In this document: positions 3,194 to 19,717 of the stretch, piece after piece
How positions within the stretch are numbered: the stretch's first letter is position 1
How the letters are laid out: each line of letters starts with the position of its first letter
IMG/VR virus record: IMGVR_UViG_3300025630_000034
Location: 1-30,863 of that record
DNA from: a virus
Direction: 5' to 3' (one strand)
DNA: 30,863 nt
Made by a program: the position numbers and the translations under genes
Notes under the pieces: model-generated
What the model saw: the letters and a program-made list of their open reading frames with translations, nothing else
What the model was told of the DNA's origin: nothing
Database searches by the model: none

Positions 3194-6100
3194 TTAACTC
3201 TCCCTTACTGCCATATATACAGTTAAACCTTTTGCTGCTGTTGTGTGAACAGAGTCAATATCTATTGTTATTATATCCCCTACTGATAAAGACGTGGTTG
3301 TCAAATCCGGCTTCGTTGTAGCAGTGGTCGTCGTCTTCTCCGCTGAATCGAAATCTAATTTATTGGTAGTCATGATACTTGTGCCACCAATACTTATATC
3401 TACAACCATTGTACCTGTTGTACCAGCTGTAGAGTTAGTTGCATATAAATAGAATGGAGAGCTATCACTCTGTAAGATCGTACCTGCTATTGGAGAGACA
3501 AAGTCTCCAGCTATATTGGTTGCAGCCGCACAGTCTGTATCTTTCTCTACAAGGTTGAACGTGAGCCATCTAATGTTTCTCTTTGAATCTTGGAACCCAT
3601 CAGGGGTCAATGCTCTCGTAGCATCAGTACCAGTATCTGTCTCAGCAGCTGTTGCAAGCTCAACTTTACCAGCAGTAGTGGTACTAGCAGCACTAACAAC
3701 TGCATCTACATTACCAGTCGTAACAGTTCCTACAGTTGTGATATTAGCTTGAGTAAAATGCTCATTAGCATCAAAATTAGCAGCCGCATCGTGGTCCACT
3801 ACAAAGTCCATATCACCAGTTGCGTCTTGGTAAGTGATCGTAATCCCCGTGTGCGTACCAGTCGCGTTTGAAATCAACTCCCCTGCATAGTCCTCTACTT
3901 GTTCTTGGCTGAGCGTAGCAGTTATATACCCACTATCGTTTGTCCATTGAGAAATATTACCCGACTTATTTGTAAATGTATCAGTCGTATCTCTACCTAC
4001 AAGAGTGTCTGTTGCTGATGGAAGGGTTAGCGTATAGTCAGAAGCGAGAGAAGCTGCTGTTGTTAATCCTATGCTATTCGTTCCATTTGCTGTGTCTTCA
4101 AACAATTTAACTGTAGCCTGTGAACCAGACCAACCTAGGAACTCATAAGCCCCTGCACCTTTTGACTGAAAAGCAAGCCCGACATTTGTATCGCTTCCGT
4201 AAGAGTAAAGTATAGGGCTACTCCCTGTTACACTATTTCCTATTTCGAGATAGTTTACCGCAGAAGTGTTTTTGTGAAACATCAACAGCTCATTACCTGA
4301 ATCATCAGTTATCCCGTTATGGTGATCAAATGAGATATTAAATCCGTTTGTATCTAAGTCCCCTCCCAGTTGCGGTGTAGTATCTTCAATTATATTAGAG
4401 ATACCGCCAACACTAATGGCTTCGATCTTGTCGTAAATATCTTTCTTGGTAGGAACCTCTAACGAACCACTCCAACCCGCTCCATACGCTTCATCCGGCA
4501 CTGTTACATCGCCAGAAAAAGCTCCTGTCCCAGTAACATCAAGAGCCGCTACTGGTGAACTGTTCTGAATACCCACATTCCCATCCGACTTGATATAAAT
4601 ATCTGGATTAGTTGTTGCATTGTTTACATATAACCCTAAACCATGACTGGTATTTGTACCAATTCCAAAGGAATCTTCTCCAGTACCATCAGTTGCGAAG
4701 AACTGGCCCACCCAGCCGGTACTTGTATAGAAAGTTGCAAGTGTTGGATCTGTTGAAGTTGCTGCGTTTTGCTTTGCGTAAAAAGGAACTGAGCCTGAAG
4801 AAGTTACAATATCTAAACCAGCAGCAGGAGAAGCATTATTAATCCCTACAAATTCCGTGTTTGCTTCAATCGTCACTTGTGGTGTTGCGAAGGCGCTATC
4901 ATTAGACAGTAAGATTAAATCCCTAGTTGTCCCAGTACCATTTTTAGCCGAAATAATTCCACTAGTACCAGTTGGACCATAGGTTCCATTTTTAAATGAC
5001 CCTAACCAAATCACACTGGAATTGTCAACGTCATTAGTTTCTTGAACAGTATAAGCAAGGTCAGAACCAGCAGCTTGACCATCTAAAACTATCTGCCCTT
5101 GAGCATAATCTGCGTGCGCCCATAAAGGAACAGCATGATCGTGACCCGCTGCATCCATCGTATCTGAGTCAGCTGTAATCTCAACTTGACCAAGAGTGTT
5201 AGAAGCTTGATTGACAGAGAGCTTCAAGTCCTTATCAAGGTTGAAGACTGCGGTTCCTCCGTTATCTTCAAACCGTAAATAGTTACCAGTGTAAGAAGCG
5301 ATTGAACGACCAAAGATTATATCGTCACCAACGACAGCTGGGAATACATTTAAAGCGCCACCAATATCAGTAGGAATACCCACAAACAGTCTATCGTTTG
5401 TAGGATCCCATGTTAAAGCTGCTTCAGATTCTGTACCACCACCACTAACTGTATAAACAAGCTCACCAGCATCAGCACCACTACGACCGCCACCGCCTAT
5501 TACACTCAGTACATCATCATTGTCAATCTTTCTAAATTCAGCTGCTGATGTATCCCAATAAACCCACTTATCACCAGATGCTACACCTGTAAATTCAGTT
5601 AGTAAATCTGCATCATAAATCAATGGGTGCTCAGAACCAATAACTCCTGCCGTCCAAACGTCTGCGCTCTCATCCCAATATAAGGCTGAATTAGTACTAG
5701 TACCACGTTCAACTTCAATCCCCACATCAGCTGAAGGAACCCCCGCCTCATCATCATTTAAGACAATTGTATCTGTATCAAAGTTAACTGTTGTTGCCTT
5801 AACTTCAAAGGTTCCACCTTCTGAATAAAAACTCTCGCATCTTAAATCTGCATAATCAGTGTCTGCATTGTTCCTAACCTGCATCTCACCTGAGCTTTCA
5901 ATCAATTGAACCTTGGTTATTAACCCAACCTGTAAAGCTCCATGTGCCCAAATGTCACCAGCCTCACCAGTTGTTCCAACCTGTAAAGTATTACCTGCTG
6001 TCGTGAATGTAAATGCATCTTCACCTGTAAAGTTAGTTCCATCTGCGTAAACTACATGACCGTTAGTCACACTTGAACCTGCAAGGTAATCAACCTCACT

Positions 6101-8713
6101 ATTAGTAGCTGTTACATCAGTGATATGAGATAAAACTGGCTGCACATTAACCCAAGCACTACCACTCCAGCGGATCATATCACCACTAGTAGCACTAGTA
6201 ATAGTTACATCACCTACATCATTTAATTCAGCAGGAGTTCCAATCGTAAACCAAGCACTACCGTTATAAGCACGAAGTACATCTGTATCCGTCTGGTAAT
6301 AGAGGGACCCCTCTGCCATGTTAGTAATACCACTCTCTAAACCTGAAGCTATATTAGCTAAACGTAAACCTGAATTTAATGCTCCCTCAAAGGCGATCAC
6401 ATCGGAGAATAAAGTATCCGACTGACGCACTTGACCAGTCCCATTACCTTCAATCCATAAATCATCATTGGTATCTTTACCTGTAACCCAACCACCACCT
6501 GACTTTGTACCAATCGTAGTACTACCTAAATCTGTATCTAAAGCTGTCGAGATTCCACCAATTGCATTAGTCAAACCAGTAACTGACAGACCACCACTAC
6601 CAATAGTCACTGCACCACTATCATCATAAGTGGGAGCATTAGTCCCACTCTGAATCAAGTAACCAGTGGTGTTATCGAAACGAACGATTGAATGATCTGC
6701 TACTGAGACGCCGCCACTATAAGCTACATCACCAACTCCATCTAAGCGAACATTACCAGAACCCTCATCTACTAAATTAAGAGCCGCAGGGGTAGTAAGA
6801 TCTGCTTGTGCTTTAAACTTAATCGTATCAACACTGCTAACAGATTCATCATTAACCAATTCAACAGCATCAATCGCACGACCACCAATTGCAGTCAATA
6901 AATCATTCTGATCAATCTTCTTATGCTCACCGGCTGTTGAATCATAGAAGCAAAACCAGTCACCAGTAGCCGGAGCAGAATCCTCTGTTAACTCACTGAA
7001 CCTTAAGCCAAGTGTATTCCCGGTTTTAATTAAACCCTCACCTGCTGTGATCTGGCCAGCACCAGAGAATTGAGCGAATACTAAAGCAGTAGTATCAACT
7101 ACGATTGGATCGTTAGTCGTTAACACCCAGCCTGAATCTGCGTTAGTTGTACCTTCTGCTACAAATGTAAATGCGCCTGCAGTAACCTCTGCATCTGTAT
7201 CAAAATCAGTTGCCCTTGTTGGTGCACCACTTGCGTTAACTGTATAGATTCCATTCTCAGGACCGCTACTTTGGTCCTTAATTAAAATTCGATCGTTAGT
7301 TGCTAATACAACTCCATCAATCGTATCTCCATTTTCAAAGTCAGTAGCTAAAGTACCAGCCGCTGTAGTTGCGACTCTTACTGAATCTTTTACATCCAAT
7401 CCAGATGCAACAGCATCTACATATGCTTTAACGGACTGTTGTGTTGGTACTTTAGTAGCACTATCAGAACTAAGATCATCTTCATCTAATACCCAGCCAT
7501 TCCCAGAAACATCAGTGTCTGCGTTATAGGTAATGTCCGCCGTATCACTTAAAGCTGTGGAAGCACCTGTTACCTCTGTGCCAATCGTAAGACCCGTGAT
7601 GTTCGCAGCATCTATGTTTGTAGCACCCTGGTCTGTCGTCCAATCAATATGCTCGTTTGCTACATAGTTAGTAGCCGCATTGTGATCGACGACAAAATCC
7701 ATATCACCCGTTGCGTCTTGATATGTAACGGTAATGCCTGTATGAGTGCCAGTTCCAGCTGACATCAAAGCACCCGCATAATCCTCAACCTGCTCTTGGG
7801 TTAAGGTCGCCGTGATATAACCAGAGTCATTCGTCCACTGAGAGATATCTCCTGATTTGTTGGTTAGAGTATCTGCACTACTAGCTGTTATGAAAGCTGA
7901 GGTTGCATTGCTGTAATTTGATAAGTCATTATCGACAGTGAAATCAATCTTATCTGTACCGTCTAGCGCGATAGCAAGAAGGCTGCTAGTGGAGTTCAAT
8001 TTATAAAGCTCTAGGTCAACACCTGTCTTCTGCTTGAAGATACCAGTACCTGCTGTACCTACGTTGCTAGCAGTGTTAGACTCACCGCCTACAGAAAGAG
8101 CTTCAATCTTGTCATATACCGCATTCTTAGTAGGAACCTCTAGGGAACTATCCCAACCCACTCCGTAAGCCTCATCGGGAACCGTTATATCTGTGCTTGA
8201 AGCCAACACCCCTGAGCCTATGACCGCGGCGTCTATGTTTAAATCTGTTCCGTCATACCATATAGCAGCGTCGCTACCTTCACCGAAGTATAGCTGAGCA
8301 TCATCGTTTAATATGTGCAAGTCACCAGTACTGCCGATCTTCAACCTGTCGTCAACAGCGGTTGCGTCATGAAAGACTAGCTCATCTGAAGTGTTCGATT
8401 TTATCGAATAGTTCGTTGAACCAAGGAGCTTAAGTATTGTATCTGTGGCACCGCCTGCATCAAGACTGACAACTCCTGTTGAGTCATAGCTGAAGCCAGA
8501 GTTCCCGCCGAAGGAACCATTGTCATTGAACTGGACGTGTCTATTACTACCACCTGGTGCGGTAGACCCGCCACTAGATACGGTAACCGATCCGTCACCG
8601 TTATCCGTAACCGTTCCGTTGGGAAACTTTATCGTCGAGACGCCGTATACATTAGGAGTTCCATCAGGTTCTGTTACGTTTAGACTTGTTGAGCTAGCGC
8701 CAACTAAGGACAT
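3194..8713 (-). CDS. giant tail fibre protein (1839 residues)
   Basis: A very long Ser/Thr/Gly/Asp-rich, Cys-poor beta protein without signal peptide or membrane segment, typical of a trimeric phage tail fibre that contacts the host. It is built from shuffled modules: 'RFDN/QFND...GYL' strand repeats, 'KIDxxDxLxxIGG' repeats, and two pairs of long duplications at the two ends of the protein (annotated separately). The N-terminal ~40 residues (Thr-Glu-Pro-Asp-Gly-Thr, Gly-Asp-Gly-Ser-Val-Thr-Val) may attach to the virion. Residues ~1711-1839 are a distinct C-terminal domain that is also encoded alone at 1049-1450. The ATG overlaps the upstream stop as TAATG. No intramolecular chaperone Ser-Asp or Asp-Glu autocleavage motif was identified. 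Confidence 0.85.
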   Translation of the reverse strand: MSLVGASSTSLNVTEPDGTPNVYGVSTIKFPNGTVTDNGDGSVTVSSGGSTAPGGSNRHVQFNDNGSFGGNSGFSYDSTGVVSLDAGGATDTILKLLGSTNYSIKSNTSDELVFHDATAVDDRLKIGSTGDLHILNDDAQLYFGEGSDAAIWYDGTDLNIDAAVIGSGVLASSTDITVPDEAYGVGWDSSLEVPTKNAVYDKIEALSVGGESNTASNVGTAGTGIFKQKTGVDLELYKLNSTSSLLAIALDGTDKIDFTVDNDLSNYSNATSAFITASSADTLTNKSGDISQWTNDSGYITATLTQEQVEDYAGALMSAGTGTHTGITVTYQDATGDMDFVVDHNAATNYVANEHIDWTTDQGATNIDAANITGLTIGTEVTGASTALSDTADITYNADTDVSGNGWVLDEDDLSSDSATKVPTQQSVKAYVDAVASGLDVKDSVRVATTAAGTLATDFENGDTIDGVVLATNDRILIKDQSSGPENGIYTVNASGAPTRATDFDTDAEVTAGAFTFVAEGTTNADSGWVLTTNDPIVVDTTALVFAQFSGAGQITAGEGLIKTGNTLGLRFSELTEDSAPATGDWFCFYDSTAGEHKKIDQNDLLTAIGGRAIDAVELVNDESVSSVDTIKFKAQADLTTPAALNLVDEGSGNVRLDGVGDVAYSGGVSVADHSIVRFDNTTGYLIQSGTNAPTYDDSGAVTIGSGGLSVTGLTNAIGGISTALDTDLGSTTIGTKSGGGWVTGKDTNDDLWIEGNGTGQVRQSDTLFSDVIAFEGALNSGLRLANIASGLESGITNMAEGSLYYQTDTDVLRAYNGSAWFTIGTPAELNDVGDVTITSATSGDMIRWSGSAWVNVQPVLSHITDVTATNSEVDYLAGSSVTNGHVVYADGTNFTGEDAFTFTTAGNTLQVGTTGEAGDIWAHGALQVGLITKVQLIESSGEMQVRNNADTDYADLRCESFYSEGGTFEVKATTVNFDTDTIVLNDDEAGVPSADVGIEVERGTSTNSALYWDESADVWTAGVIGSEHPLIYDADLLTEFTGVASGDKWVYWDTSAAEFRKIDNDDVLSVIGGGGRSGADAGELVYTVSGGGTESEAALTWDPTNDRLFVGIPTDIGGALNVFPAVVGDDIIFGRSIASYTGNYLRFEDNGGTAVFNLDKDLKLSVNQASNTLGQVEITADSDTMDAAGHDHAVPLWAHADYAQGQIVLDGQAAGSDLAYTVQETNDVDNSSVIWLGSFKNGTYGPTGTSGIISAKNGTGTTRDLILLSNDSAFATPQVTIEANTEFVGINNASPAAGLDIVTSSGSVPFYAKQNAATSTDPTLATFYTSTGWVGQFFATDGTGEDSFGIGTNTSHGLGLYVNNATTNPDIYIKSDGNVGIQNSSPVAALDVTGTGAFSGDVTVPDEAYGAGWSGSLEVPTKKDIYDKIEAISVGGISNIIEDTTPQLGGDLDTNGFNISFDHHNGITDDSGNELLMFHKNTSAVNYLEIGNSVTGSSPILYSYGSDTNVGLAFQSKGAGAYEFLGWSGSQATVKLFEDTANGTNSIGLTTAASLASDYTLTLPSATDTLVGRDTTDTFTNKSGNISQWTNDSGYITATLSQEQVEDYAGELISNATGTHTGITITYQDATGDMDFVVDHDAAANFDANEHFTQANITTVGTVTTGNVDAVVSAASTTTAGKVELATAAETDTGTDATRALTPDGFQDSKRNIRWLTFNLVEKDTDCAAATNIAGDFVSPIAGTILQSDSSPFYLYATNSTAGTTGTMVVDISIGGTSIMTTNKLDFDSAEKTTTTATTKPDLTTTSLSVGDIITIDIDSVHTTAAKGLTVYMAVRES
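3758..3973 (-). repeat. fibre module B, copy 2 (72 codons)
   Basis: The C-terminal copy of the 216-base module at 7649-7864. Amino-acid changes are conservative (for example Gly-Asp to Gly-Asn near the start) while many third bases differ, so the copies have diverged under selection for protein sequence. Confidence 0.88.
4403..4501 (-). repeat. fibre module A, copy 2 (33 codons)
   Basis: Same 99-base length as 8084-8182 with only a few amino-acid changes (in the Gly-Trp linker and the Lys-Asp/Asn-Ala position). It lies N-terminal to module B copy 2, so the order A then B is kept in both copies. Confidence 0.85.
7649..7864 (-). repeat. fibre module B, copy 1 (72 codons)
   Basis: In the N-terminal part of the giant fibre. 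It runs from Thr-Asn-Lys-Ser-Gly-Asp through Gln-Trp-Thr-Asn-Asp-Ser-Gly-Tyr-Ile and Asp-Ala-Thr-Gly-Asp-Met-Asp-Phe-Val-Val-Asp to Ala-Asn-Glu-His. Same length (216 bases) and mostly the same residues as 3758-3973. Confidence 0.88.
8084..8182 (-). repeat. fibre module A, copy 1 (33 codons)
   Basis: Val-Pro-Asp-Glu-Ala-Tyr-Gly...Ser-Leu-Glu-Val-Pro-Thr-Lys...Tyr-Asp-Lys-Ile-Glu-Ala...Ser-Val-Gly-Gly. It lies N-terminal to module B copy 1. Confidence 0.85.
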
Positions 8714-9078
8714 TAAGCAAGCTCCTCTACCACCATTGTTACTGTCCCAGCTGCGACGGCAAAGTAACTACCGGAGATAGAGTCTGTGTCTAGTGCAGCG
8801 TTCTCGCCCCAGGCCGTTGGACTCGTTTCATAGAAACGCTCTCCACTTGCCTTTAGTTGAACCCCTTCTGCTACAGTCTGCGAATCGTTCTCTAAGATAT
8901 AGATCGTCGCCGCACCTGTGTTCTGAAGGTTCACTTGCCTTGTCGCCCCGCCAAGGGTTCTACCTGTAACCGCTGCGTCTAACAGGGTGTCTAGTGTACT
9001 TGGAGTGGTGGTCACAGTTACTGTGATACCTCTTCGAGAACCTAGTCCTAGTCTACTGTGATTTGTTTTTCTACTCAT
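8713..9078 (-). CDS. small beta-rich virion protein (121 residues)
   Basis: A basic N-terminal arm (Ser-Arg-Lys-Thr-Asn-His-Ser-Arg) leads into a Thr/Val-rich beta domain with 'VNLQNTGAATIYI', a Gly-Glu-Arg-Phe turn and a C-terminal 'YFAVAAGTVTMVVEE' strand pair. This pattern is typical of small phage surface or fibre-base proteins with a jelly-roll or Ig-like fold, though no named family can be assigned. It ends in a TAATG junction with the giant fibre gene, so the two are probably made in a fixed ratio and may interact. Confidence 0.65.
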   Translation of the reverse strand: MSRKTNHSRLGLGSRRGITVTVTTTPSTLDTLLDAAVTGRTLGGATRQVNLQNTGAATIYILENDSQTVAEGVQLKASGERFYETSPTAWGENAALDTDSISGSYFAVAAGTVTMVVEELA

Positions 9079-9101
9079 AATTCTATTTTACCTCAATTTA
9101 T

Positions 9102-9524
9102 TTACACTAACTGAGCATCCAGCTCTGCAATTTTTGCTAGTAATTTATCAGCTAAAGTTGCCGTTAAAGCTGAAGCCCCATCCTCTTTACTCTTCTCCAC
9201 CCTCGCCTTAATCATTGCCACCGTTGCTTTCGTCGCCTTGAAAGATTTGTCTGTCAAAATATTTGCAACGAAGATGCTCTCATTTGCCCAACTGTTTAGT
9301 TCAGCCTCCTCTTCAGGAAACTCTTTTGCTAAAAGCTCAAGAATGTTAACCTCAAGGCTCAGTTGCTTTAGTGGGTCGTGAGCTTCAACAACAGTCTTCG
9401 CTGTTGAAAGTTGACTCTTTGAAGGTTCACCTTCCCAAGAGACCTCTCCTCGACTATTGACACCTACCACCGGTAGCCCTGCGTCCCTTAGTTCTTTACC
9501 CAATACTGATACGTTATATGTCAT
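9102..9524 (-). CDS. hypothetical protein, possible fibre accessory/chaperone (140 residues)
   Basis: The first ~50 residues hold a small beta unit (Leu-Gly-Lys-Glu-Leu-Arg-Asp-Ala-Gly-Leu-Pro, Gly-Glu-Val-Ser-Trp). The rest is a long Ala/Glu/Lys/Leu helical region. This size and layout resemble short proteins that follow phage fibre genes and act as assembly factors (XkdW-like in general appearance), but I cannot assign a family. Its ATG overlaps the stop of the 546-residue fibre in an ATGA junction, which supports functional pairing with that fibre. Confidence 0.6.
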   Translation of the reverse strand: MTYNVSVLGKELRDAGLPVVGVNSRGEVSWEGEPSKSQLSTAKTVVEAHDPLKQLSLEVNILELLAKEFPEEEAELNSWANESIFVANILTDKSFKATKATVAMIKARVEKSKEDGASALTATLADKLLAKIAELDAQLV

Positions 9525-11161
9525 ACTTCAATCTCCGCTACTAACCCACTCTGGCTCCAGCCCCCTGTTTGAGCTGCCCAAAACTGCATATTATTGGAAC
9601 CGTTAGATTTTTCTACCCACTGTAAGTAGTGGTACCCAGCGCTAGGGTATCCACCATAGCTGGCAAGCGCAGTACTGTGTACACTTACTGCCGTAGTATT
9701 GCTTACTCCCCTGAATAGCTGGGCATGATTCGCATTCGTCGCATCCAAAGCAATCCCAGCAAACCCATCCGAAGCAGCGTTGTCAGCTCTTATTACAGCA
9801 AAGAGGTCGGCTTTAACCGCTCTCGCCACTGGAAGAATGAATTCGACACGAGTTTCTCCAACTGTTGTCGTTGCATTTGCGGCACGTATCGTCGTACTAC
9901 TATAGCTCCAATTACCAGCGTCACCGTCCGCAAAAAGTCTCCTCGGAAGAGGTCTCTCTAAGTCTGACAACAGCCAACTATTGTCTGTCTGCTGCGTCTC
10001 TCCACTTGAACTCGTTGTTCGCCCCGTCCCAAGTAGTCGTCGAGTTGCGTCGCCCGACTTGACATAAATGCCATTCTGTAAAGTTATAGCTGTCGCCCTA
10101 TTTGTATCATCCGTCCAGTCAAGAGCCTCTAGAGCTAACGTCCCGTTATTGTTATAGCCAAAGATGTCAAAGTTAGTGTCAGTCGTAGATGGTACTGCGA
10201 CGGAAACCTCAGAGAAGCCTATATCTACCCAGTCAGAGCCGTCATACAAAGCTATACGATCACCCTTATATGGTGTGAAATAGACAGTTGTCTTTGCTGT
10301 CTGGTCTGTCGTGCTAACAGCTTCTCCCGACTCAAGTGTTAAACGTCCTGCTCGAGGGAGGTTAACAACTGCTATAGAAGATGAGGCAACCGCAACCCTC
10401 CACCCTGTCCCGGATGTCAAGCTACTAACTAATGTCCCTTTATAATGAGCGCTCCCAGCACTTAGAAGTAAATCACTTGCCACCCCGTTAATTCTCTCGC
10501 CACTCGCAGCTTGCTTCAACGTTACTGCGCTTAGGTCAGTCGCGTCACCAGCTGTCAGTTCAAAAGAAGATAGATCATCCGGATCATCTATTAACGTGAT
10601 CTCGGTAACGCTTGATCCAACTATATACTTCCCGCCATTCTCAATAGTAAAGTTTGTTGTCTTGCTCTCCCATCCAGTCTTATACGTGGCATCTCCATGG
10701 AGAGCTAGGTTTTGTGTACCTGCTGTCGGTTCAATCGCAAGCCCCCCTGTCCCTGCAGTACTGTTCGTCGCCCCCGTCATGTCAACCACTCCAGTTGGAT
10801 CTGTAACTAAGGTGCTGTAGTTACCTGTTGTAATAACTTCAGACGCTGTGGAGGTTCCAGACCCATACTTCAACTTACCCGTGCTAGTTGTAGTGATAGT
10901 TATATCTCCACCGGTTGTCTCTGAATCAATGTCATCAACCTGGATGCCACCTTGGAATCTCTGCAAAGCTGTAGCGATAGACTCAACGCCTGCTTGCAAG
11001 CCCTGGTCTATGATCCAGTTCATCGCCGTGATCAAAGGGGTCAATACAGTTGTATTGTTCGTGTTCTCAGTTGCAGCCTCTACCGTCTCACCATCGTTAA
11101 CGGTGATGAGGTCTGTAGTTTGTGGCTTACCACTTGTTACGTCAGTCTTGTTTGTTGCCAT
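9521..11161 (-). CDS. tail fibre / receptor-binding protein (546 residues)
   Basis: A Thr/Ser/Ala-rich beta protein. A helical N-terminal part at ~35-70 (Leu-Ile-Thr-Ala-Met-Asn-Trp, Ile-Ala-Thr-Ala-Leu-Gln-Arg-Phe) could trimerise or attach to the tail. Residues ~75-260 are repetitive strands. A compact region at ~285-400 (Tyr-Lys-Gly-Asp-Arg-Ile-Ala-Leu-Tyr-Asp-Gly, 'NFDIFGYNNNGTLALE', Asp-Arg/Asn-Arg-Ala-Thr-Ala-Ile-Thr-Leu-Gln-Asn-Gly) matches a domain I associate with many phage fibres. A C-terminal sandwich follows, likely the receptor-binding tip. Its ATG forms TAATG with the 1307-residue ejection protein. Confidence 0.78.
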   Translation of the reverse strand: MATNKTDVTSGKPQTTDLITVNDGETVEAATENTNNTTVLTPLITAMNWIIDQGLQAGVESIATALQRFQGGIQVDDIDSETTGGDITITTTSTGKLKYGSGTSTASEVITTGNYSTLVTDPTGVVDMTGATNSTAGTGGLAIEPTAGTQNLALHGDATYKTGWESKTTNFTIENGGKYIVGSSVTEITLIDDPDDLSSFELTAGDATDLSAVTLKQAASGERINGVASDLLLSAGSAHYKGTLVSSLTSGTGWRVAVASSSIAVVNLPRAGRLTLESGEAVSTTDQTAKTTVYFTPYKGDRIALYDGSDWVDIGFSEVSVAVPSTTDTNFDIFGYNNNGTLALEALDWTDDTNRATAITLQNGIYVKSGDATRRLLGTGRTTSSSGETQQTDNSWLLSDLERPLPRRLFADGDAGNWSYSSTTIRAANATTTVGETRVEFILPVARAVKADLFAVIRADNAASDGFAGIALDATNANHAQLFRGVSNTTAVSVHSTALASYGGYPSAGYHYLQWVEKSNGSNNMQFWAAQTGGWSQSGLVAEIEV

Positions 11162-14100
11162 TACCTAAATTTCCCTTCTTTAAACTGCTTCTGTAAGAGC
11201 TTAGGGATCTCATCCCGCCTTGCTCCCTCCATTATCCTACGTGCCTGCTGCTTAGTCAAACGCCCTCGGTCTATATCCTCAAGGAGTCTGAACTTTAATT
11301 TCTTTTCAATCAACTCGTAAGCCTTCTGTCTATTGTCATATATAGCAGCTTTCCTTGGGTCTGCTGTCCTATACTTCCCATAGCTACTCTTCATTGCTTG
11401 TCGCCTTGAGAACTCTGCTTGCGCTGTTGGGCTGTCTTTCACCGCTTCCCTTGGGTCAATGCCTAGTTTGGCATACTTCTCTCCCCTCTTATACTTAGCC
11501 AGTTCTTCGTTTATGTCAGACCGCTTCATCCTTTCCGCCTTTGTGAAAGCGCCTTGTCTTGAAGATGCCGCAATAGGCTCTGTTATCCAGCGAGGTGGAA
11601 GCTTCCCAAACTGCTTATTCGTATTAGGGTCAAGGATAGCAAGTGGCTCACCAGCGGCAGCCAACTTAACAGCCTCGCCAGTGCCCTTCACTACATTCGA
11701 TGCGCCTGGTCTCAAGAAGTCCAGAAAGGCTCCCGTAGGGTCCCGTCCCTCCATGAAATTATCAAAAGAATATTTATTGGCCAACGGAATAAAGTTCTCA
11801 AGCATTTGATCGCCAAACTCTTGAACGTAACTTGCCGCGCCCGCAATCCCGTACCCTGCCAAAGAAGCAAAGTAAACCCTAAGAGCCACGGTCGGCGCAA
11901 TCTCTAGAGCAAGGGCTCTCGTAAAGTTCTGCGCAGCGTTCCCGAAGTCGCGGCCAACTTCACCAACTGTTCGATCCAATAGTATGTTTGCGTTCTTGAT
12001 CTGGAAAGATTTAACAGGGTAGAAGAAGTTCTTCCCGACCTTCGTACTCGCAAGACTTGCCTTATCCCCTTTGGACAGAACCTGCCCTCCAACATTTCTA
12101 GCAGCAGAAAGCACCGTGTTCAAAGTCTTTGCGGTGAATTTTTTATTGCTCGCAAAGTCAGTAAGTATCTCCACCCGGTCTTCAGGGGCTACCCAGTTCT
12201 CGAGAAACCTCTCGAAGTTTGTAGTCCCGGTCCCCTTCTTCAGCTTAAGTTCAGCGTTTCTTCTCAACCACTTGTGTGCAGTGTTTAGGGTTAAGCTTGC
12301 TTCCATTTGGTTAGCCTTATGGAAAGGAAGTAAAACCATTCTGTCACTAATAACCTGCAACGCACCCTCGTTTGTTTCAAGGTCATTTAAAACTTTAAAG
12401 TTAAGGTCCGAAGTTTTCAACCTGCCACTCCCTGGTCTAACGTAGTCTAACATTGCCGCAAAAGTTTCTGACAGACCAAAGCGACTCATGTTACGAGGAA
12501 CGGACGTCAACTGAATAGCTGTAGTTTGCCCACTGGAAAGTAAACCTGCGTTAACCATTGTGTTCCACACCTTCCAGAAAGAGTTGTACTCGCCAGGGGT
12601 GTAAGCTTCTGTCAGAGCTTTCATAGCCTGTATGCCCTGGAGCTCTGTCAGCTTACCAGACTTCCTACCCATCAAGATCTTCTCTGTTATCAAGTCCGCG
12701 ACAGACTTGCTCTTCTTCAGGTCCTGCCCTTTAAACATTCTAGCCAAGGATAACTGAGTACCCGTACTCTTCAGATGACTATCTAGAGCAACCAAGTTGT
12801 CCTCGTAAAGATCTAACATCTTCTCTGGAATTTTTTTAATTTGCCTTTCACCAACAACTCTTTGCATGATACTGTCTTCAGTTTCGACGGAAGTCTCTAG
12901 TTGATCTAGCACCTGTTGCAGGTAAGACTCTCGCTCTTCACGAGTGATGATCCCCTCCTTCTCCAGCTCTTTAAGATACTTGTCTGGGCGAACTCTTTTA
13001 CGTGGAGCATAGTTTTGAATGCGATCAGGTACATCTACTCCCGCTGCCCTTAACGAAGTATGAATCTCTCCAAGCACCTCCTCATTTGCTAGAGCAACTC
13101 TCCTTTCCAGGTCAGTAAAGCCGTCCCACTCCCCGTTTTGCAAGGCTTTTTTGTCTAGCTTCTTGTAGACTTGCCTGAACTGCTTAAAGCTCAGCCCCGT
13201 TAGATCTTCAACTTTTTGCTTGTACAGGCGACTCGTGATGGCTGGGGTGTTCATTGCCGCGTTATAGTCATTGGCAATGTCTTCCGCCCCAATCTTCTTC
13301 AAGAAGGTCACGGCATCAGACCCAGCCCGGTAGACAGTCATTCCTTTTTCTACCATCTTCCCGAGAAACGATTGAGCCGAAGCTCCCTCGAATTCTTTTT
13401 GAACCATTGCTTCCTTTTGAAATTTACCTGGCTTCTCCTTCTTCTGAGCTTGAAGCTTCCGCAGCTCAACATCTTCTTCAACCGTCTTAACGACAGCCTT
13501 GTACTGCTCAGGGTCCGCATCCCTGAGACCACGGACATTCTCAATAATCTCCCTCTCAGTCTCAGTCATTGGCAAGTTCTCTTTGGAGTTGTCAATATAC
13601 TTCTGCAGAGTATCAACCTCTTCGGTCATCTGCTCCATCGCCTGCTCTTTCTGCTTAATGCCAAGGGACTCATCTAAAGCATCAAGAGTATTCTTGTGCC
13701 TCATCTCTAACTGGCGAGTGGTATTGTCTAGTTGGCTTAACGACTCTTGTGCCATTGAAGCGTCCTTCTCCCACTCCACAGACTCAGCTTGACGTTTAAC
13801 TAAGCTCTCCTCTTTAGATCTAATCTTGCCGTCTAGAGATTGAAGCTCTTTCTCCAAAGCTTTAATCTGCTCAGGTCTCTGCTTGGCATTACGCTTAGAC
13901 TTAATACCCTTCAGCCTCTTGACTTCTTTCTGAGCCTTAGTCTTAGCTACCTTCAGCTCCTTAACCTCTTCCCTGCGAGTCGCGACAGTCTCTTTCAGCT
14001 CCTTGATACGAGTCTGTGCTTCATCTAATCTAGTTTGAACCTCTGCCTTTTGCCCTCTAACACCTTTGATTTGAGCGTTAACCTCGTCCAGTCTAGCCAT

Positions 14101-15084
14101 AGTTTCTCTTGCCATTGCCGCGTCTTCTATGTCAGCAGGCTTGTTTTTTAAACTAGCGATATCCTGCTTGCGAGTCTCAATAGCTTCAGCCGCCTCACTA
14201 GCAAGTTGTTGACGCTGATCAAGCTGTTGCTTCCTAGCTTTCAACACCTGTATATCTCTCTCAGAAACAGGCTTACCTTCCACCTGTACCATGTCAGCTT
14301 CAGCAGCCTTAGCTTCATTTAAACTCTTGAACCTTCTACGGCTCATGTTCTGCATTTGTTGAACACGCCTTTGCCCCGAGGCTTGTACTCTTTGAGCTAC
14401 GCCTTCTAGGGTTTTCCCTATAACTCTCTTGCCAACGCTTGCACCCATGTGCAACCCCTTGCCAAGGACTCCACCAACTAGACCAGCCCCCGTGCCCATC
14501 GCAGTCTGTTTACCAATCTCTCCAACGTCTGCCCTGGTTGTCGGGTCTAAGTCCAGCTGCCTAGAGGCTCCCTCTAAGAGACCTAAGGCTCCACCCTCAA
14601 GAGCTCCGACCCCCATCATCGTGAAGAGTCCTGTCCCCGCGGCTGCACTGAGTGGAGCTACGGCTGAATACTTCCCTAAACCAAAGGGGATTCCAAAAGC
14701 TAGTTCAGCAGGGGTGCCACCTTCTGCCATCATTTGCTGTAGGTGTGGCTTCTCTTTAAATAAGTTCTCCACAGCCGTGTCGGCTCTAGTCCCAGGCTCC
14801 GTATAAAACCCTTCAGGCACAGGGCTTGTAAGCTCCATAGCTTTCAAAGCCAAAAGATTGCGAAGCAGGGCTCTCTCCTTCTCTGCTTCAAAGGCTTCGT
14901 CATCTTCACCTAAACTCTTCAGGGCCGCCTCGATATTAGCTTCAAGACTCAGTGCTCCTCTTGCGGCACCGCCACTCACGTCCTGTACAAGATCTGCAAT
15001 CCCAGCCGTGAAACCTACTCCGGCTCCCTCTTTAGCTAAGTCTGCATACTCTGAGATCCCAAGTTTGTAGGGTTCGGTTGCCAT
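11161..15084 (-). CDS. large internal virion / DNA-ejection protein (1307 residues)
   Basis: The third gene of the ejection block. Residues ~120-215 are Ala/Gly-rich hydrophobic segments capable of membrane insertion. Residues ~236-556 are a long charged coiled coil full of Lys/Glu/Gln heptads. A helical region follows, with an 'NYAPRKR' element near residue 690 and a Trp-Lys-Val-Trp...Gly-Leu-Leu-Ser-Ser-Gly-Gln-Thr segment near 840-865. A further hydrophobic stretch (Val-Ala-Leu-Arg-Val-Tyr-Phe-Ala-Ser-Leu-Ala-Gly) lies near 1060-1090, and the tail is Lys/Arg-rich. This fits a protein ejected to span the periplasm, like T7 gp16 or P22 gp16/gp20 in role but not demonstrably homologous. No lytic transglycosylase motif was recognised. 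TAATG junctions flank both ends. Confidence 0.75.
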   Translation of the reverse strand: MATEPYKLGISEYADLAKEGAGVGFTAGIADLVQDVSGGAARGALSLEANIEAALKSLGEDDEAFEAEKERALLRNLLALKAMELTSPVPEGFYTEPGTRADTAVENLFKEKPHLQQMMAEGGTPAELAFGIPFGLGKYSAVAPLSAAAGTGLFTMMGVGALEGGALGLLEGASRQLDLDPTTRADVGEIGKQTAMGTGAGLVGGVLGKGLHMGASVGKRVIGKTLEGVAQRVQASGQRRVQQMQNMSRRRFKSLNEAKAAEADMVQVEGKPVSERDIQVLKARKQQLDQRQQLASEAAEAIETRKQDIASLKNKPADIEDAAMARETMARLDEVNAQIKGVRGQKAEVQTRLDEAQTRIKELKETVATRREEVKELKVAKTKAQKEVKRLKGIKSKRNAKQRPEQIKALEKELQSLDGKIRSKEESLVKRQAESVEWEKDASMAQESLSQLDNTTRQLEMRHKNTLDALDESLGIKQKEQAMEQMTEEVDTLQKYIDNSKENLPMTETEREIIENVRGLRDADPEQYKAVVKTVEEDVELRKLQAQKKEKPGKFQKEAMVQKEFEGASAQSFLGKMVEKGMTVYRAGSDAVTFLKKIGAEDIANDYNAAMNTPAITSRLYKQKVEDLTGLSFKQFRQVYKKLDKKALQNGEWDGFTDLERRVALANEEVLGEIHTSLRAAGVDVPDRIQNYAPRKRVRPDKYLKELEKEGIITREERESYLQQVLDQLETSVETEDSIMQRVVGERQIKKIPEKMLDLYEDNLVALDSHLKSTGTQLSLARMFKGQDLKKSKSVADLITEKILMGRKSGKLTELQGIQAMKALTEAYTPGEYNSFWKVWNTMVNAGLLSSGQTTAIQLTSVPRNMSRFGLSETFAAMLDYVRPGSGRLKTSDLNFKVLNDLETNEGALQVISDRMVLLPFHKANQMEASLTLNTAHKWLRRNAELKLKKGTGTTNFERFLENWVAPEDRVEILTDFASNKKFTAKTLNTVLSAARNVGGQVLSKGDKASLASTKVGKNFFYPVKSFQIKNANILLDRTVGEVGRDFGNAAQNFTRALALEIAPTVALRVYFASLAGYGIAGAASYVQEFGDQMLENFIPLANKYSFDNFMEGRDPTGAFLDFLRPGASNVVKGTGEAVKLAAAGEPLAILDPNTNKQFGKLPPRWITEPIAASSRQGAFTKAERMKRSDINEELAKYKRGEKYAKLGIDPREAVKDSPTAQAEFSRRQAMKSSYGKYRTADPRKAAIYDNRQKAYELIEKKLKFRLLEDIDRGRLTKQQARRIMEGARRDEIPKLLQKQFKEGKFR

Positions 15085-15692
15085 TAAAGATCTCCGTGTT
15101 TCTCTAACAGAGCTTCATATTGCAACCCTAGATCAGAGCCTTCCCCACCAAATAAACCTCCGATACTATCGAAGACATTCTGGAACATGTTCTGCTGGGA
15201 CTGCCCTTGATCAAACTGTTTCATCGCACTGAGCAAACCAAAGTTGTCTTGTGCTCTAGCCTTACCGTAAGCCTCAGAAGCTTTAACTCTGTACTTACCA
15301 GCGATCTCTGACTTCCTCAACTCATTTGCGAGCTTCAGCACGTCTGGCTGCTTCTCAAAGAACTTGCCATACATATCAGGTAACTTGTCTACATTAGTGT
15401 AATCTATATTGTCCCTCATCATCTGGAGTTTGTTTGCTTGCTGTTGCAATCCCAGCTTCTCTAGAGCGCTCAACCCTTCTGCATCCGATGCCGCCAACAC
15501 GTCATTGATCTGTAGCCCTAGATTCTGCTTAGCATAAGACGCGCGCCCCGCATTTCTCCTTGCTGTAGCTATAGAGCTTAACCCCCCAAGCATTCCCTTC
15601 ATTCGGTTGTAACTTCTCTCTTGTGTATACTGTCTGTCCAAAGCTCCTTGAGCTCCGGCGACATTTGCTAATACATCTATTTTCTTTGACAT
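15084..15692 (-). CDS. putative ejection / internal virion protein (202 residues)
   Basis: An Ala/Gln/Leu-rich helical protein with a Met-Leu-Gly-Gly-Leu-Ser-Ser-Ile patch near 35 and a Phe-Asp-Ser-Ile-Gly-Gly-Leu-Phe-Gly-Gly segment near residues 172-182. Size, composition and position between two other candidate ejection proteins suggest an internal virion protein comparable in role to P22 gp7 or T7 gp14. No sequence motif proves it. It starts in a TAATG junction with the 387-residue gene and ends in another with the 1307-residue gene. Confidence 0.65.
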   Translation of the reverse strand: MSKKIDVLANVAGAQGALDRQYTQERSYNRMKGMLGGLSSIATARRNAGRASYAKQNLGLQINDVLAASDAEGLSALEKLGLQQQANKLQMMRDNIDYTNVDKLPDMYGKFFEKQPDVLKLANELRKSEIAGKYRVKASEAYGKARAQDNFGLLSAMKQFDQGQSQQNMFQNVFDSIGGLFGGEGSDLGLQYEALLEKHGDL

Positions 15693-16855
15693 TATCCTAA
15701 CAACCCTCCTACTCCACCTATAATCGCACCAACCGGTCCACCAGTTGCAAAGCCTGCGAGAGCACCAGTTGCTGCTCCCCCTAAGTTCAAACCACCCTCA
15801 TCTCCACCAGGTCCAGCACCTGGCATCACATCTACAGGGGAAGAAAGTAAAGCTGTTCTAAGCCCTTGTTGTTGAAACCTGTTCGCTATGTTCTGTTGCT
15901 GTAATGTTGCTGCCATTTGAGCCGACTGAGGGTCAGTAAATAACCCTGCCGCTCCTGGGCTCATGATGCCGGACTGGTAATTACGTAAAGCCTGCGCCTG
16001 GCGACCAGCTCGCCCAGTGAGCATCTGTTCCTCTCTGCCTGCAAGTTCACCCATTGCCTGAGTTAAGAACCTAGACTGAGCCTTACCAGCAGTGTCTGCG
16101 ATAAACCCTGGAGCAAAGGAACTCTTTGATGTACCAGACCCCACCAGCTCACCAAGTGCTGATCGAGTTGAGTCTCTATAAACATCAGAGAACTCGTCCA
16201 TATAACGAGCCTTCATTTCGTCAAGACTTTTCTGTTGACTTGGAAGCAACCCTTGTTGGTTAAAACCTTGACTGAGCATACCTTGCATGCCACCAATCCC
16301 TGTCATCCCAAGGGATCTTAAAGCGTCCAATAATCTTTCCGACTCACCACCCATTTGCACCCCGCCAGGAGTGAACTGCTGTTCCGCACGAATGCGACCA
16401 TCATCTACTGATAGACCTTCAAACTCTCCACGCTTAATAGCTTTACGAAAACCTTTACTATCTCTGAACCTAAGGTTGTTAGCCTTGCGTTCAGCTGTAC
16501 TTGGATCTACACCCTTGTTGATCAAGTATTTCTTAAATGCTTCTTTCTTCAGGTCCCGCCCAGGGATCTTCTGAGCTTGCGTTACTTGAGCCCCACCAGG
16601 ACCGTAACTCGCCGTACCATATAAAGACTCTAAACCACCCCCGAAACGATCCAGGTCATCAAGAGCTGCTTGCATCATCTCTGGAGTAAACATCCCCGTT
16701 GCAGTTGGAGCTACTCCTGGTTGCATCATTGAAGTCATGGCTGGTCCGGCCACTGCCATTAGTTGATCCAAAGGTAGTCCACCTCCCACTGCCCCTCCGG
16801 TAGATGGCTGCGGTAAATTCTGTTGCGCCCAAGCTTCGTATGACGGTGATGACAT
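15692..16855 (-). CDS. putative ejection / internal virion protein (387 residues)
   Basis: An Ala/Gly/Gln/Met-rich protein. The N-terminal ~90 residues are Gly/Pro/Met-rich and probably flexible. The middle (~100-160) is basic (Lys-Lys-Glu-Ala-Phe-Lys-Lys-Tyr). The ~200-330 region is helical. The last ~30 residues form a glycine zipper (Gly-Ala-Ala-Thr-Gly-Ala-Leu-Ala-Gly-Phe-Ala-Thr-Gly...Ile-Ile-Gly-Gly-Val-Gly-Gly), a feature of membrane-inserting phage ejection proteins. It lies directly downstream of the tail nozzle gene. The start uses TTGAGGT, a moderate ribosome site. Confidence 0.68.
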   Translation of the reverse strand: MSSPSYEAWAQQNLPQPSTGGAVGGGLPLDQLMAVAGPAMTSMMQPGVAPTATGMFTPEMMQAALDDLDRFGGGLESLYGTASYGPGGAQVTQAQKIPGRDLKKEAFKKYLINKGVDPSTAERKANNLRFRDSKGFRKAIKRGEFEGLSVDDGRIRAEQQFTPGGVQMGGESERLLDALRSLGMTGIGGMQGMLSQGFNQQGLLPSQQKSLDEMKARYMDEFSDVYRDSTRSALGELVGSGTSKSSFAPGFIADTAGKAQSRFLTQAMGELAGREEQMLTGRAGRQAQALRNYQSGIMSPGAAGLFTDPQSAQMAATLQQQNIANRFQQQGLRTALLSSPVDVMPGAGPGGDEGGLNLGGAATGALAGFATGGPVGAIIGGVGGLLG

Positions 16856-16869
16856 ACCTCAATTATAGT

Positions 16870-18516
16870 TTATTGTTTACCCATTGGCAAATATCGGAAC
16901 ACAATTTTGTGTATAAATGGAGATGCTGCATCATTGCTTCGTACTCTACATTTCAAGATCTTCCCGATATTATTCGTGGGCGTGAACTCTATCCTCTTCA
17001 AAGGTTGCCCGGCAAAGGACGAGTACTTAGACGTGCCGTACACCGCAGACCCAAACAGGGACTGGCCTGTAGTGGATATCGTTAACCTGTCATACCCAGA
17101 TCTATCGTCCTCCCACATGTGGTAGAACTCAAGCAACCCTTCTGTATCGCTAGGGTTACTGTAGTAAATTATAATCTTCTTAATATCCTTGTTGTTATCT
17201 AGGTTCCCAAAGTCTAGCGGAGAAAGTTGATACCACATGTCGATAGGCTCCCCATCATAATCAAAGCCCGAGTTAGTTTGATAGATCTTATTCCTACTCA
17301 CTATCAACATCTCATTGGTTGCTCTATCAACAAAGCTGTCAACGAAATGGAAGTCATCACCAAAGCCTACGTCTAACCCCCACTCCTCGTCCTCATTGGA
17401 GTCCGCATAGTCATAGACATGTTTCTTGTCAGGGAAAGATTTAGAAGGCGCTGACGGGAGCCACAGGTGCAGCTCGCCCTTAATAAAATGGTTGACCAAC
17501 CTACCCCTTTTGAACTGCTCAAGCGTGACGGACTCAAAGTCAGGGAAGATCTTACTAGATATCCCTCTCGGCTTGACGTCTTGGAAGTTCTCTGTACTTA
17601 GGAAGTGATAAACCGTACCAAAGTTAGACACAAAGAAGATGTCATTGTCCCCTTTAGGGGCGACAAGTCTATGGTGCGGACATCCAACCTCCCGGTTTAA
17701 ACACTTCATCTGAATCTTAGGAGTAGGGTACCCATTGCCTGGAGGGAAAATACCTGTAACAACATGTATCTCTCGCTCACAAAGGACTATTAAATACTCA
17801 TTATTAACTGTATGTATAGATGTTATCGGCGACCTAGCATCTAAATCTAACCAGAAAGCAATGTTGATATTACCAGAGTTATTTGAACCAAAGTCATCAT
17901 AGTCAAAGAACTTACTAAAGTACAGGCGATAAGGACGCAAGGAATCTCCTGACAACACAGCCCTGTTCTGATAGAACGCACCAAACTTAGGGTACCCAAT
18001 GTCCGTACCTAAAGTTGTAGGGTTCGCCTGTGTCGCGTTATTAGACTCGTCAAGCAAGGTGTTATTCTCCACGTTAAAGGTTGGAGGCCACGGTATATCA
18101 GCGGCAACGCCGTTGGTAATTAGCTTAGGGTTATTCACCCCATCAACAAAGATCCCCTCACCATGTGTAAGTTCGAAAAAGAAAGGGTCCCCATCGGAAG
18201 TTAGAGTTGTGTCTATCACCGTATGGAACCCATTCTCAGAATTCACAAGCTTCATCTCGGGGTAACTAGCTGTTATATAGTAGTTCGTTCCATCTTGATC
18301 AGAGTAATTAAAATGATTCTCTAGTCGAGTGTCTATCCCATACTCTGGGAATTTGTCAGTCCAGCCTAGCTTCTTGGCTAGCCCGAACTGTTTAGTTATC
18401 TCAAAGTTCTGAGCCGAAGGTGTCTGACCATAGATCAAACTATTCTCGTCATCTCGAGTATTACGCCCTCTGAAGAAGTCATAAGCAAAGGACTGGGTTG
18501 TAGCTAGATCTGTCAT
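16870..18516 (-). CDS. tail nozzle / hub protein, P22 gp10-like beta-propeller (putative)
   Basis: A 548-residue beta-rich protein rich in aromatic and Asp/Asn residues. It shows repeated blade-like segments, including Ala-Phe-Tyr-Gln-Asn-Arg-Ala-Val-Leu-Ser-Gly (~180), Tyr-Arg-Leu-Tyr-Phe-Ser-Lys-Phe-Phe-Asp-Tyr-Asp-Asp-Phe (~195), Tyr-Leu-Ile-Val-Leu-Cys-Glu-Arg-Glu-Ile-His (~240) and Asp-Ile-Phe-Phe-Val-Ser (~285). The 'YQNR...RVYFS...D(Y)DDF' arrangement is typical of short-tail nozzle proteins that extend the portal-adaptor channel. Location right after the adaptor and before the ejection genes agrees. It starts in a TAATG junction with the Gly/Pro-rich gene. Confidence 0.75.
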   Translation of the reverse strand: MTDLATTQSFAYDFFRGRNTRDDENSLIYGQTPSAQNFEITKQFGLAKKLGWTDKFPEYGIDTRLENHFNYSDQDGTNYYITASYPEMKLVNSENGFHTVIDTTLTSDGDPFFFELTHGEGIFVDGVNNPKLITNGVAADIPWPPTFNVENNTLLDESNNATQANPTTLGTDIGYPKFGAFYQNRAVLSGDSLRPYRLYFSKFFDYDDFGSNNSGNINIAFWLDLDARSPITSIHTVNNEYLIVLCEREIHVVTGIFPPGNGYPTPKIQMKCLNREVGCPHHRLVAPKGDNDIFFVSNFGTVYHFLSTENFQDVKPRGISSKIFPDFESVTLEQFKRGRLVNHFIKGELHLWLPSAPSKSFPDKKHVYDYADSNEDEEWGLDVGFGDDFHFVDSFVDRATNEMLIVSRNKIYQTNSGFDYDGEPIDMWYQLSPLDFGNLDNNKDIKKIIIYYSNPSDTEGLLEFYHMWEDDRSGYDRLTISTTGQSLFGSAVYGTSKYSSFAGQPLKRIEFTPTNNIGKILKCRVRSNDAASPFIHKIVFRYLPMGKQ

Positions 18517-19028
18517 TACCTAGTGTAGCCAGTGGTTGACTGAGGTCCACGAGCTGCAAACATAGGGTTGTCTGCTAGGAACTCCTTCGCGCCACCGTAA
18601 CCTAACTCCTTAATTCTTCTCTTACCTTTCTTGCCAAACTTGCCAGTGTTAAAGAACTTGCCGCCGAAGTCATACTGATCATACTCTGGGTTAGAAACAC
18701 TCGCAGCTTTAGGAGGGAAGAGCCCACCTGTATCTGTCCCTTCATAAGGTTGAGCGCCGCCAAATGCACCGCCGCCTACTGGGGCTTGAGCCGTTGGTCG
18801 AGAGATTGGAATCGGAGCACCTGCGTAACCAGACGCAGCGCCTTGTTCTGGGTAACCAAATGGTAACCCCGCTGTGCCAACCGGGGCGCCATGCATAGGT
18901 CCGAAGGAAGTGATGTTAGGACTAAAGGCGCCCCCTGTTACTGGTTGGTCAAACAGTCCACCGAACCCGCCGCCGAAGCGAAAGTCCTGGTAAGGAAAGC
19001 CGTAGGGATTGTAAGGATTGTATCTCAT
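18516..19028 (-). CDS. Gly/Pro/Tyr-rich tail-associated protein (170 residues)
   Basis: Unrecognised. Residues 1-110 are low-complexity Gly/Pro/Phe/Tyr/Ala (Asn-Pro-Tyr-Asn-Pro-Tyr-Gly-Phe, Gly-Gly-Gly-Phe-Gly-Gly-Leu-Phe), probably disordered. Residues ~128-148 hold a basic patch (Lys-Phe-Gly-Lys-Lys-Gly-Lys-Arg-Arg-Ile-Lys). It is coupled to both neighbours: ATGA overlap with the adaptor upstream and TAATG with the nozzle downstream. A minor tail or plug-like protein that travels with the adaptor-nozzle complex is an inference from position. Confidence 0.62.
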   Translation of the reverse strand: MRYNPYNPYGFPYQDFRFGGGFGGLFDQPVTGGAFSPNITSFGPMHGAPVGTAGLPFGYPEQGAASGYAGAPIPISRPTAQAPVGGGAFGGAQPYEGTDTGGLFPPKAASVSNPEYDQYDFGGKFFNTGKFGKKGKRRIKELGYGGAKEFLADNPMFAARGPQSTTGYTR

Positions 19029-19717
19029 AACGTTCTGTCCGCGTAGTTGTAGTTCATTCGGAACCTATTCCAGCCTTTGCGCTTATAGGTATGTTTGTTC
19101 CTCTCGAAGAACTTTTGTTTTTGTGAATCAAACTCTTTGAAGTAGCTCTGCCACTCAGGGTCGCCATCTGCTTTACGCAGGTAGGCGTACATCCCGCTCT
19201 GCAAAGCTAACAGAGCAGAGTCGGGAAGTACGATAGTGTCAGTGATATTGCTTGCTGTGATATAAGGAACTATCTGTTGATAGGAAACAACTAAGGTATA
19301 GACTTGGGTGGGCACCGGTAGGATATACACCTTCCCCCCCAAGACATACCAATACTGTGGATCGTTACTTTGAAACGTCTTGAGCTTATAGTCTTCTGCT
19401 TGCTCTGGACTTATCAAAGCCATCTTCAACAGAGAGGTCTCTCCGCTCTTCTTATACTTAATCCACTTAATAACATTAGAGTCCCAAGTGTCTGACGGTG
19501 AGGTTAGCTCACCATTTGCAACAGTCGTAGAAACTTCTTCTATCTTCTCTGTTGCGTCTATATCAAAGCTGTCCTGAATGAAATGCTGAATCGCTTTCTT
19601 TGCAGCTTGAACTCCCTGTAAAGCATCGCCACTGTTCTCACCTACGGCTGTAGCCCCTAGTGGAGTGGCTCCATACTCAGCTCTGGCCGAGTTTAAAATG
19701 TCGAGATATGTTGCCAA
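19025..19717 (-). CDS. head-to-tail adaptor protein (putative)
   Basis: A 230-residue protein whose N-terminal helices (Tyr-Leu-Asp-Ile-Leu-Asn-Ser-Ala-Arg, Ala-Lys-Lys-Ala-Ile-Gln-His-Phe), central beta part (Tyr-Trp-Tyr-Val-Leu-Gly-Gly-Lys-Val-Tyr-Ile-Leu-Pro) and C-terminal helices (Leu-Leu-Ala-Leu-Gln-Ser-Gly-Met-Tyr-Ala-Tyr-Leu-Arg-Lys-Ala-Asp-Gly-Asp) follow the plan of short-tail phage adaptors such as P22 gp4 and T7 gp11. It binds below the portal and above the nozzle. The start is a TTG at 19715-19717 inside the preceding gene; Met-Ala-Thr-Tyr-Leu-Asp is a plausible adaptor beginning, and no better ATG lies nearby. The overlap with the 203-residue gene is 41 bases. Confidence 0.72.
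   Translation of the reverse strand: MATYLDILNSARAEYGATPLGATAVGENSGDALQGVQAAKKAIQHFIQDSFDIDATEKIEEVSTTVANGELTSPSDTWDSNVIKWIKYKKSGETSLLKMALISPEQAEDYKLKTFQSNDPQYWYVLGGKVYILPVPTQVYTLVVSYQQIVPYITASNITDTIVLPDSALLALQSGMYAYLRKADGDPEWQSYFKEFDSQKQKFFERNKHTYKRKGWNRFRMNYNYADRTL

Follow-up and report, generated by a model that had tools for sequence, protein, structure and literature searches.

A three-gene block in a 30,863-base virus record, analysed here at its full length (the window), raises the question of whether its products form an ejection module and whether the giant among them is a distinct trans-envelope conduit, as a first-pass annotation had proposed. The three open reading frames, of 387, 202 and 1307 codons, lie where that annotation placed them, on the minus strand together with all assignable genes of the window. 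The first encodes a 387-aa protein (15692..16855), the second a 202-aa protein (15084..15692) and the third the 1307-aa giant (11161..15084), proposed to be a gp16-type ejection protein.

Other IMG/VR contigs represent the same virus, matching the window at 99.96-100% identity, and the longest of them has 41,986 bases. In this sister record, the first 580 and the last 706 bases are repeats of one another (90-95% identity, ~115 bases separating the matching blocks), from which we infer that the genome is almost complete, ~41 kb long and either terminally redundant or permuted, with strain variation. The ~41-kb virus also encodes a RecT protein, a DUF3799 nuclease, a helicase and a primase-helicase.

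Genes in the window are arranged in the order large terminase, portal-like protein, scaffold and head (both probable, assigned by position only), head-tail adaptor, a 170-aa protein, tail nozzle, the 387-, 202- and 1307-aa proteins, a 546-aa protein, two small genes and an 1839-aa protein. The adaptor (19025..19717, minus strand) belongs to the SU10_adaptor family (Pfam PF24175, E 1.2e-13, above the cut-off), and no tape measure or sheath match was obtained among the proteins scanned; together these results point to a short tail. Directly upstream of the block, the tail nozzle/hub (stabilisation) protein (16870..18516, minus strand) matches phrog_376, a tail protein (7.9e-9), as well as a "phage stabilization protein" in tblastn (3e-6), and appears to be a distant relative of other podovirus nozzles. 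Its structural model, built from 23 sequences, is poor (pLDDT 35), and the resulting Foldseek list, in which tail-complex chains of T7, P22 and other podoviruses are mixed with beta-propellers, is used as supporting evidence only. Searched against IMG/VR, the nozzle alignment retrieved 58 loci, three from this virus and the others distant and lacking a homolog of the giant, and it had no match in genomes; the portal, head and TerL proteins, used as bait in IMG/VR, recovered copies of the same virus only. Judged by eye from its sequence, the portal C-terminus looks short and T7-like, lacking long helices such as P22 and SU10 have, and a short portal C-terminus goes with a stacked internal core in phages (PMC8954989).

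On the downstream side, the 546-aa protein (9521..11161, minus strand) is a probable tail-fibre or appendage gene product, as it follows the giant immediately and is coupled to it by TAATG; it has no Pfam domain above the cut-off. The 1839-aa protein (3194-8713) has fibre-type matches. It also has patches in common with a nozzle-adjacent protein of Pelagibacter phage HTVC115P, reaching 73% identity over 26 aa, which suggests exchange of fibre modules. Adjoining the fibre gene is a 358-aa protein (1656-2732) with a DUF2341 and a lectin-like Laminin_G_3 domain, and the same end of the window encodes a 134-aa M15 peptidase (642-1046), likely the endolysin, and a DUF1353 protein (265-657).

The block has an adaptor and a nozzle upstream and a fibre-type gene downstream. 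In T7, SP6, phiKMV, P-SSP7 and HTVC019P, ejection genes likewise come after the tail tube B/nozzle gene and before the fibre genes. An excerpt of PMC10386132 gives the order tube B, ejection genes, fibres as a general rule, and describes ejection genes as hard to place owing to divergence and mosaicism. The TAATG junctions noted in the first-pass annotation are present between the 387- and 202-aa genes and between the 202- and 1307-aa genes, and a further one joins the giant to the 546-aa gene, whereas nozzle and 387-aa genes are separated by a 14-nt gap. Since TAATG also occurs outside the block, at 8713, 18516 and 25097, the overlap is a habit of this genome and not a mark of the block. The protein sizes do not fit as well as the position: compared with the published ranges for gp14, gp15 and gp16 (181-240, 431-982 and 609-1337 aa; PMC8954989), only the giant falls within range, and this misfit of the 387/202/1307 pattern counts against an ejection module.

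The glycine zipper ascribed to the 387-aa protein is real and occupies its extreme C-terminus, making this protein a putative membrane-entering ejection protein in the role of T7 gp14, P22 gp7 or SU10 gp22. Its residues 310-384 align with positions 249-317 of the SU10 gp22 family in local hhalign (Prob 54.8, E 1.2e-4), a score reached by none of 50 full and none of 50 local shuffles. The match is limited to the C-terminal 75 residues, and Gly-rich convergence is a possible cause. In SU10, the five proteins gp20-24 are found in virions and are absent from release intermediates, according to an excerpt of PMC9509320. The 202-aa protein has no Pfam or PHROG match, and its weak hhalign alignment with residues 186-226 of T7 gp15 (E 0.009) is not counted as homology.

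Residues 240-560 of the giant contain 50% E/K/R/D/Q and only 14 Pro+Gly, and their heptad score is matched by none of 300 local shuffles; the strongest stretches are 285-315, 325-434 and 437-512, so that the coiled coil, estimated earlier at ~320 residues, is real with a length nearer 230 residues (~285-512; 13549..14232, minus strand). Three other parts of the giant show no such signal, residues 901-1307 coming nearest (30 of 300 shuffles by mean score). Its ends had been described as membrane-like, and hydrophobic peaks are present there, with best 19-residue Kyte-Doolittle means of 1.05 at 128, 1.41 at 152 and 1.45 at 1058 (residues 1058-1076; 11857..11913, minus strand). However, these peaks are moderate: 9 of 38 non-ejection phage proteins (40 comparison proteins minus two with internal stops) reach 1.41, and hydrophobicity was rejected as proof of an ejection role. 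More telling is the Gly+Ala richness of the N-terminal segment (residues ~121-220; 14425..14724, minus strand), 38% over 100 residues, a level reached by 2 of the 38 controls; among 18 ejection proteins, known as such or assigned by position, 10 reach it. It is this richness, rather than hydrophobicity, that sets the N-terminus apart. The C-terminus is basic and ends in KEGKFR. An AlphaFold model of residues 545-1307 alone is all-helical, though unusable (mean pLDDT 43, pTM 0.24).

The three proteins of the block contain no cysteine in 1,896 residues, as against 47 cysteines in 7,941 residues for the 26 other genes of the window. A similar scarcity is seen in the ejection proteins of nine phages, with 3 cysteines in 21,498 residues and 30 of 33 proteins having none at all, although for some of the 33 the assignment comes from annotation and place only. 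In a set of other virion and packaging proteins, picked by the authors, there are 151 cysteines in 22,868 residues (0.66%). Scaffold proteins are equally poor in cysteine (1 in 2,634 residues, nine proteins), and Cys-free fibre proteins occur in HTVC019P (491 aa) and Privateer (520 aa). Because scaffolds are alike in this respect, freedom from cysteine fits an ejection role but was rejected as proof of it. A full-text literature search, judged by its listings, returned no paper on the cysteine poverty of ejection proteins.

Collectively, the position of the block, the SU10-type adaptor, the nozzle kin, the gp22-like glycine-zipper tail, the absence of cysteine and the short-looking portal C-terminus argue that the phage is podovirus-like, with a short tail, and that the block is very probably its module of ejection (internal virion) proteins. 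Position, partner genes and composition thus give good support to the earlier description of a three-gene ejection block.

Pfam and PHROG searches found no muramidase domain in the giant, in agreement with the first-pass annotation. The same Pfam search recovered the SLT domain in T7 gp16 (1.7e-31) and SU10 gp20 as positive controls. Six of the eight ejection proteins scanned, some of which are assigned to ejection by position only, had nothing above the cut-off (phiKMV gp37, SU10 gp24, SIO1 gp26, the A24 giant, LUZ24 gp50 and P22 gp16), so the absence of an enzyme domain is ordinary for ejection proteins. Consistent with this, gp16 of P22 and Sf6 is without a hydrolase (PMC8954989). No wall-cutting domain was found in the scanned virion-side genes of the window. 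That such an absence is common is a warning against taking it as a novelty.

A tblastn search of 50,697 phage records gave no homolog of the giant at E<=0.1, and residues 560-1307, searched on phages at E<=10, gave a best E of 4. In IMG/VR the only matches were further contigs of this virus; GTDB genomes gave none, Pfam and PHROGs weak matches only, and the PDB no match of note. A phmmer match of Mx8 gp57 to residues 141-239 (E 7e-4) was rejected, as 364-403 of 500 shuffles equalled it with the Mx8 gp57 query. Local hhalign against 29 single candidates and nine family alignments gave no firm whole-length match to an ejection protein for any block member, and no firm ejection-family match for the giant. 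By these searches, the block appears to be fast-diverged, its giant having no relative that is detectable by sequence, copies of this virus aside. The claim that the giant is distinct stands in so far as no sequence relative was found; against it, the layout, with a Gly/Ala-rich N-terminus, a long helical middle, a KSF-like motif followed by a hydrophobic segment, and a basic C-terminus, resembles that of T7-type gp16, and lack of an enzyme is usual.

This resemblance leads to a sharper form of the ejection reading, namely that the giant is a true but very diverged T7-type gp16 homolog that lost its transglycosylase and gained a coiled coil, which we hold tentatively as somewhat short of an even prospect. 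Its main support is the KSF-like motif VGKNFFYPVKSFQIKNANILLDRT (residues 1016-1039; 11968..12039, minus strand), which resembles QFKSFTIKSLNSKFLR of T7 gp16 in a stretch common to T7, SP6 and phiKMV. A gp16 motif block derived from T7/T3/K11-like, SP6, phiKMV and BcepC6B sequences, with the giant left out, scores this window highest in the giant. The motif lies 292 residues from the C-terminus with a hydrophobic segment at +41, much as in gp16 proteins, and the basic C-terminus is a further likeness. However, the window scores only 6.4, a value equalled by 97-124 of 500 shuffles, while genuine members, each omitted in turn, score 14-35. Motif, C-terminal distance and hydrophobic segment jointly recur in 7-28 of 2000 shuffles, under conditions set post hoc after the match had been seen. 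Scanned as a DNA pattern over the IMG/VR viral contigs, the motif occurs in 44 stretches, of which 25 lie in gp16-type frames, two in contigs of this virus, one in a long but unrelated frame and 16 in frames that are short or closed. Both the giant and T7 went into the pattern, so that it matches the two jointly by construction. A T7/SP6/phiKMV profile gives the giant 2.8 bits, below SU10 gp24 and the 387-aa protein, and blastp, phmmer, hhalign and profile search detect no homology with T7-type gp16. As the support from the motif is weak and was obtained post hoc, homology to gp16 counts as a lead and not as a result. A KSF-like window is also present in BPP-1 bbp10, a 2052-aa giant (6187-12345 of the BPP-1 locus), 186 residues from the C-terminus with a hydrophobic segment at +35 (score 10.5); this hints that a C-terminal motif of gp16 type is more widespread.

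The size of the middle protein admits a different arrangement of the module, a reduced ejectosome in which gp15 is gone and the 202-aa protein is a remnant or adaptor, the coiled coil of the giant (~230-320 residues) combines periplasmic tunnel and inner-membrane hub in one chain, and the virion has no muramidase. The arrangement is allowed because the middle protein has 202 aa against 431-982 aa for gp15 (PMC8954989) and because the coil is absent in T7 gp16 and phiKMV gp37; we consider it unlikely. The giant might instead belong with SU10 gp24 and the Grimontviridae giants (1304-1529 aa, last in the ejection operon), an assignment that is decidedly doubtful. It draws on the adaptor family in common, the gp22-like tail of the 387-aa protein, the size and place of the giant and a weak hhalign match to the gp24 family (E 0.004). 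But this match covers Gly/Ala-rich sequence only and is accompanied by no other similarity, and the charged helical stretches lie elsewhere in gp24. The SU10-type gp24 giants, despite the common adaptor family, are also without a C-terminal hydrophobic peak, a difference that weighs against the ejection reading as well.

Two further roles for the giant lie outside a conduit. That it is a tail-tip or fibre-associated structural protein and is not ejected is very improbable: it adjoins appendage genes, and the Cys-free fibre proteins named above exist, yet it precedes the fibres, contains a coiled coil and gives an all-helical, though poor, model for residues 545-1307, whereas fibres are beta-rich as a rule. 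Scarcely any weight is given to a "polyvalent" effector-type protein carried in for a post-entry role, which a large, multi-segment helical protein without a homolog might suggest, as no LPD or enzyme domain was found by Pfam and the resemblance to "polyvalent" proteins noted in the first-pass annotation was not confirmed; an LPD38 (Pfam PF18857) search, with no match in 15 records nor in 14 controls, decides nothing.

As an ejection module, the block may act along the lines known for T7, P22 and DEV (PMC8954989; an excerpt of PMC10925440). The three proteins would be packed with the DNA, exit first via portal and nozzle, and form a trans-envelope channel, in which the 387-aa protein would enter the outer membrane via its glycine zipper, and the giant would span the periplasm and the inner membrane. 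The Gly/Ala-rich N-terminal part of the giant and the hydrophobic segment near 1058 may touch the membrane, its coiled coil may oligomerise into the tunnel or brace it, and its basic C-terminal part may face the cytoplasm or the DNA. Local opening of the wall would come from another factor, or be needless as in P22. Of the proposed distinct trans-envelope conduit, the ejection part is supported, and the distinctness is unproven. Ejection proteins diverge fast and are often assigned by size and place; with this block, the set comes to include a lineage for whose giant the phage records searched gave no relative, and the size pattern of the block raises a testable question, whether the coiled coil of a giant can replace gp15.

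A comparison with known systems shows that the block combines features of several. Like gp14-gp15-gp16 of T7 and the corresponding genes of SP6 and phiKMV, it lies between tail tube B and the fibre, and like T7-type gp16 (1318/1337 aa) its giant is of equal length, with putative membrane-like segments at both ends, a basic C-terminus as in T7 gp16 and possibly the KSF motif. Unlike T7, it has a middle protein of 202 aa instead of the 747-aa gp15, and the N-terminal SLT domain of T7 gp16 was not found in its giant; T7 gp16 and phiKMV gp37, in turn, are without the long charged helical stretch. Escherichia phage SU10 (Kuravirus), for which the Pfam family of the adaptor is named, similarly has consecutive Cys-free ejection genes (gp20-gp24) with a giant (1473 aa) last and with gp22 resembled by the C-terminus of the 387-aa protein. 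In SU10, however, there are five ejection genes, one being the separate SLT transglycosylase gp20, they do not directly follow the nozzle, and gp24 cannot be aligned to the 1307-aa giant. P22 gp7-gp20-gp16 shares a distantly related kind of nozzle upstream, a gp16 lacking a hydrolase (PMC8954989) and a glycine-rich tail in gp7, but differs in size (229/471/609 aa, gp16 having 609 aa) and in the two other genes between nozzle and ejection genes. In the Grimontviridae (Cronobacter phage A24, Proteus phage Privateer), the operon also ends with a Cys-free giant, of 1306-1529 aa, annotated in Privateer as a virion protein by mass spectrometry; their block has more genes, their injection protein has a basic tail rather than a glycine zipper, and their giant cannot be aligned to the 1307-aa giant. 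Sulfitobacter phage phiGT1 has two internal virion proteins, one with an annotated muramidase domain, and no giant, but it has the same order of portal, scaffold, head, tube A, tube B, internal virion proteins and fibres, together with an annealing-protein recombination gene.
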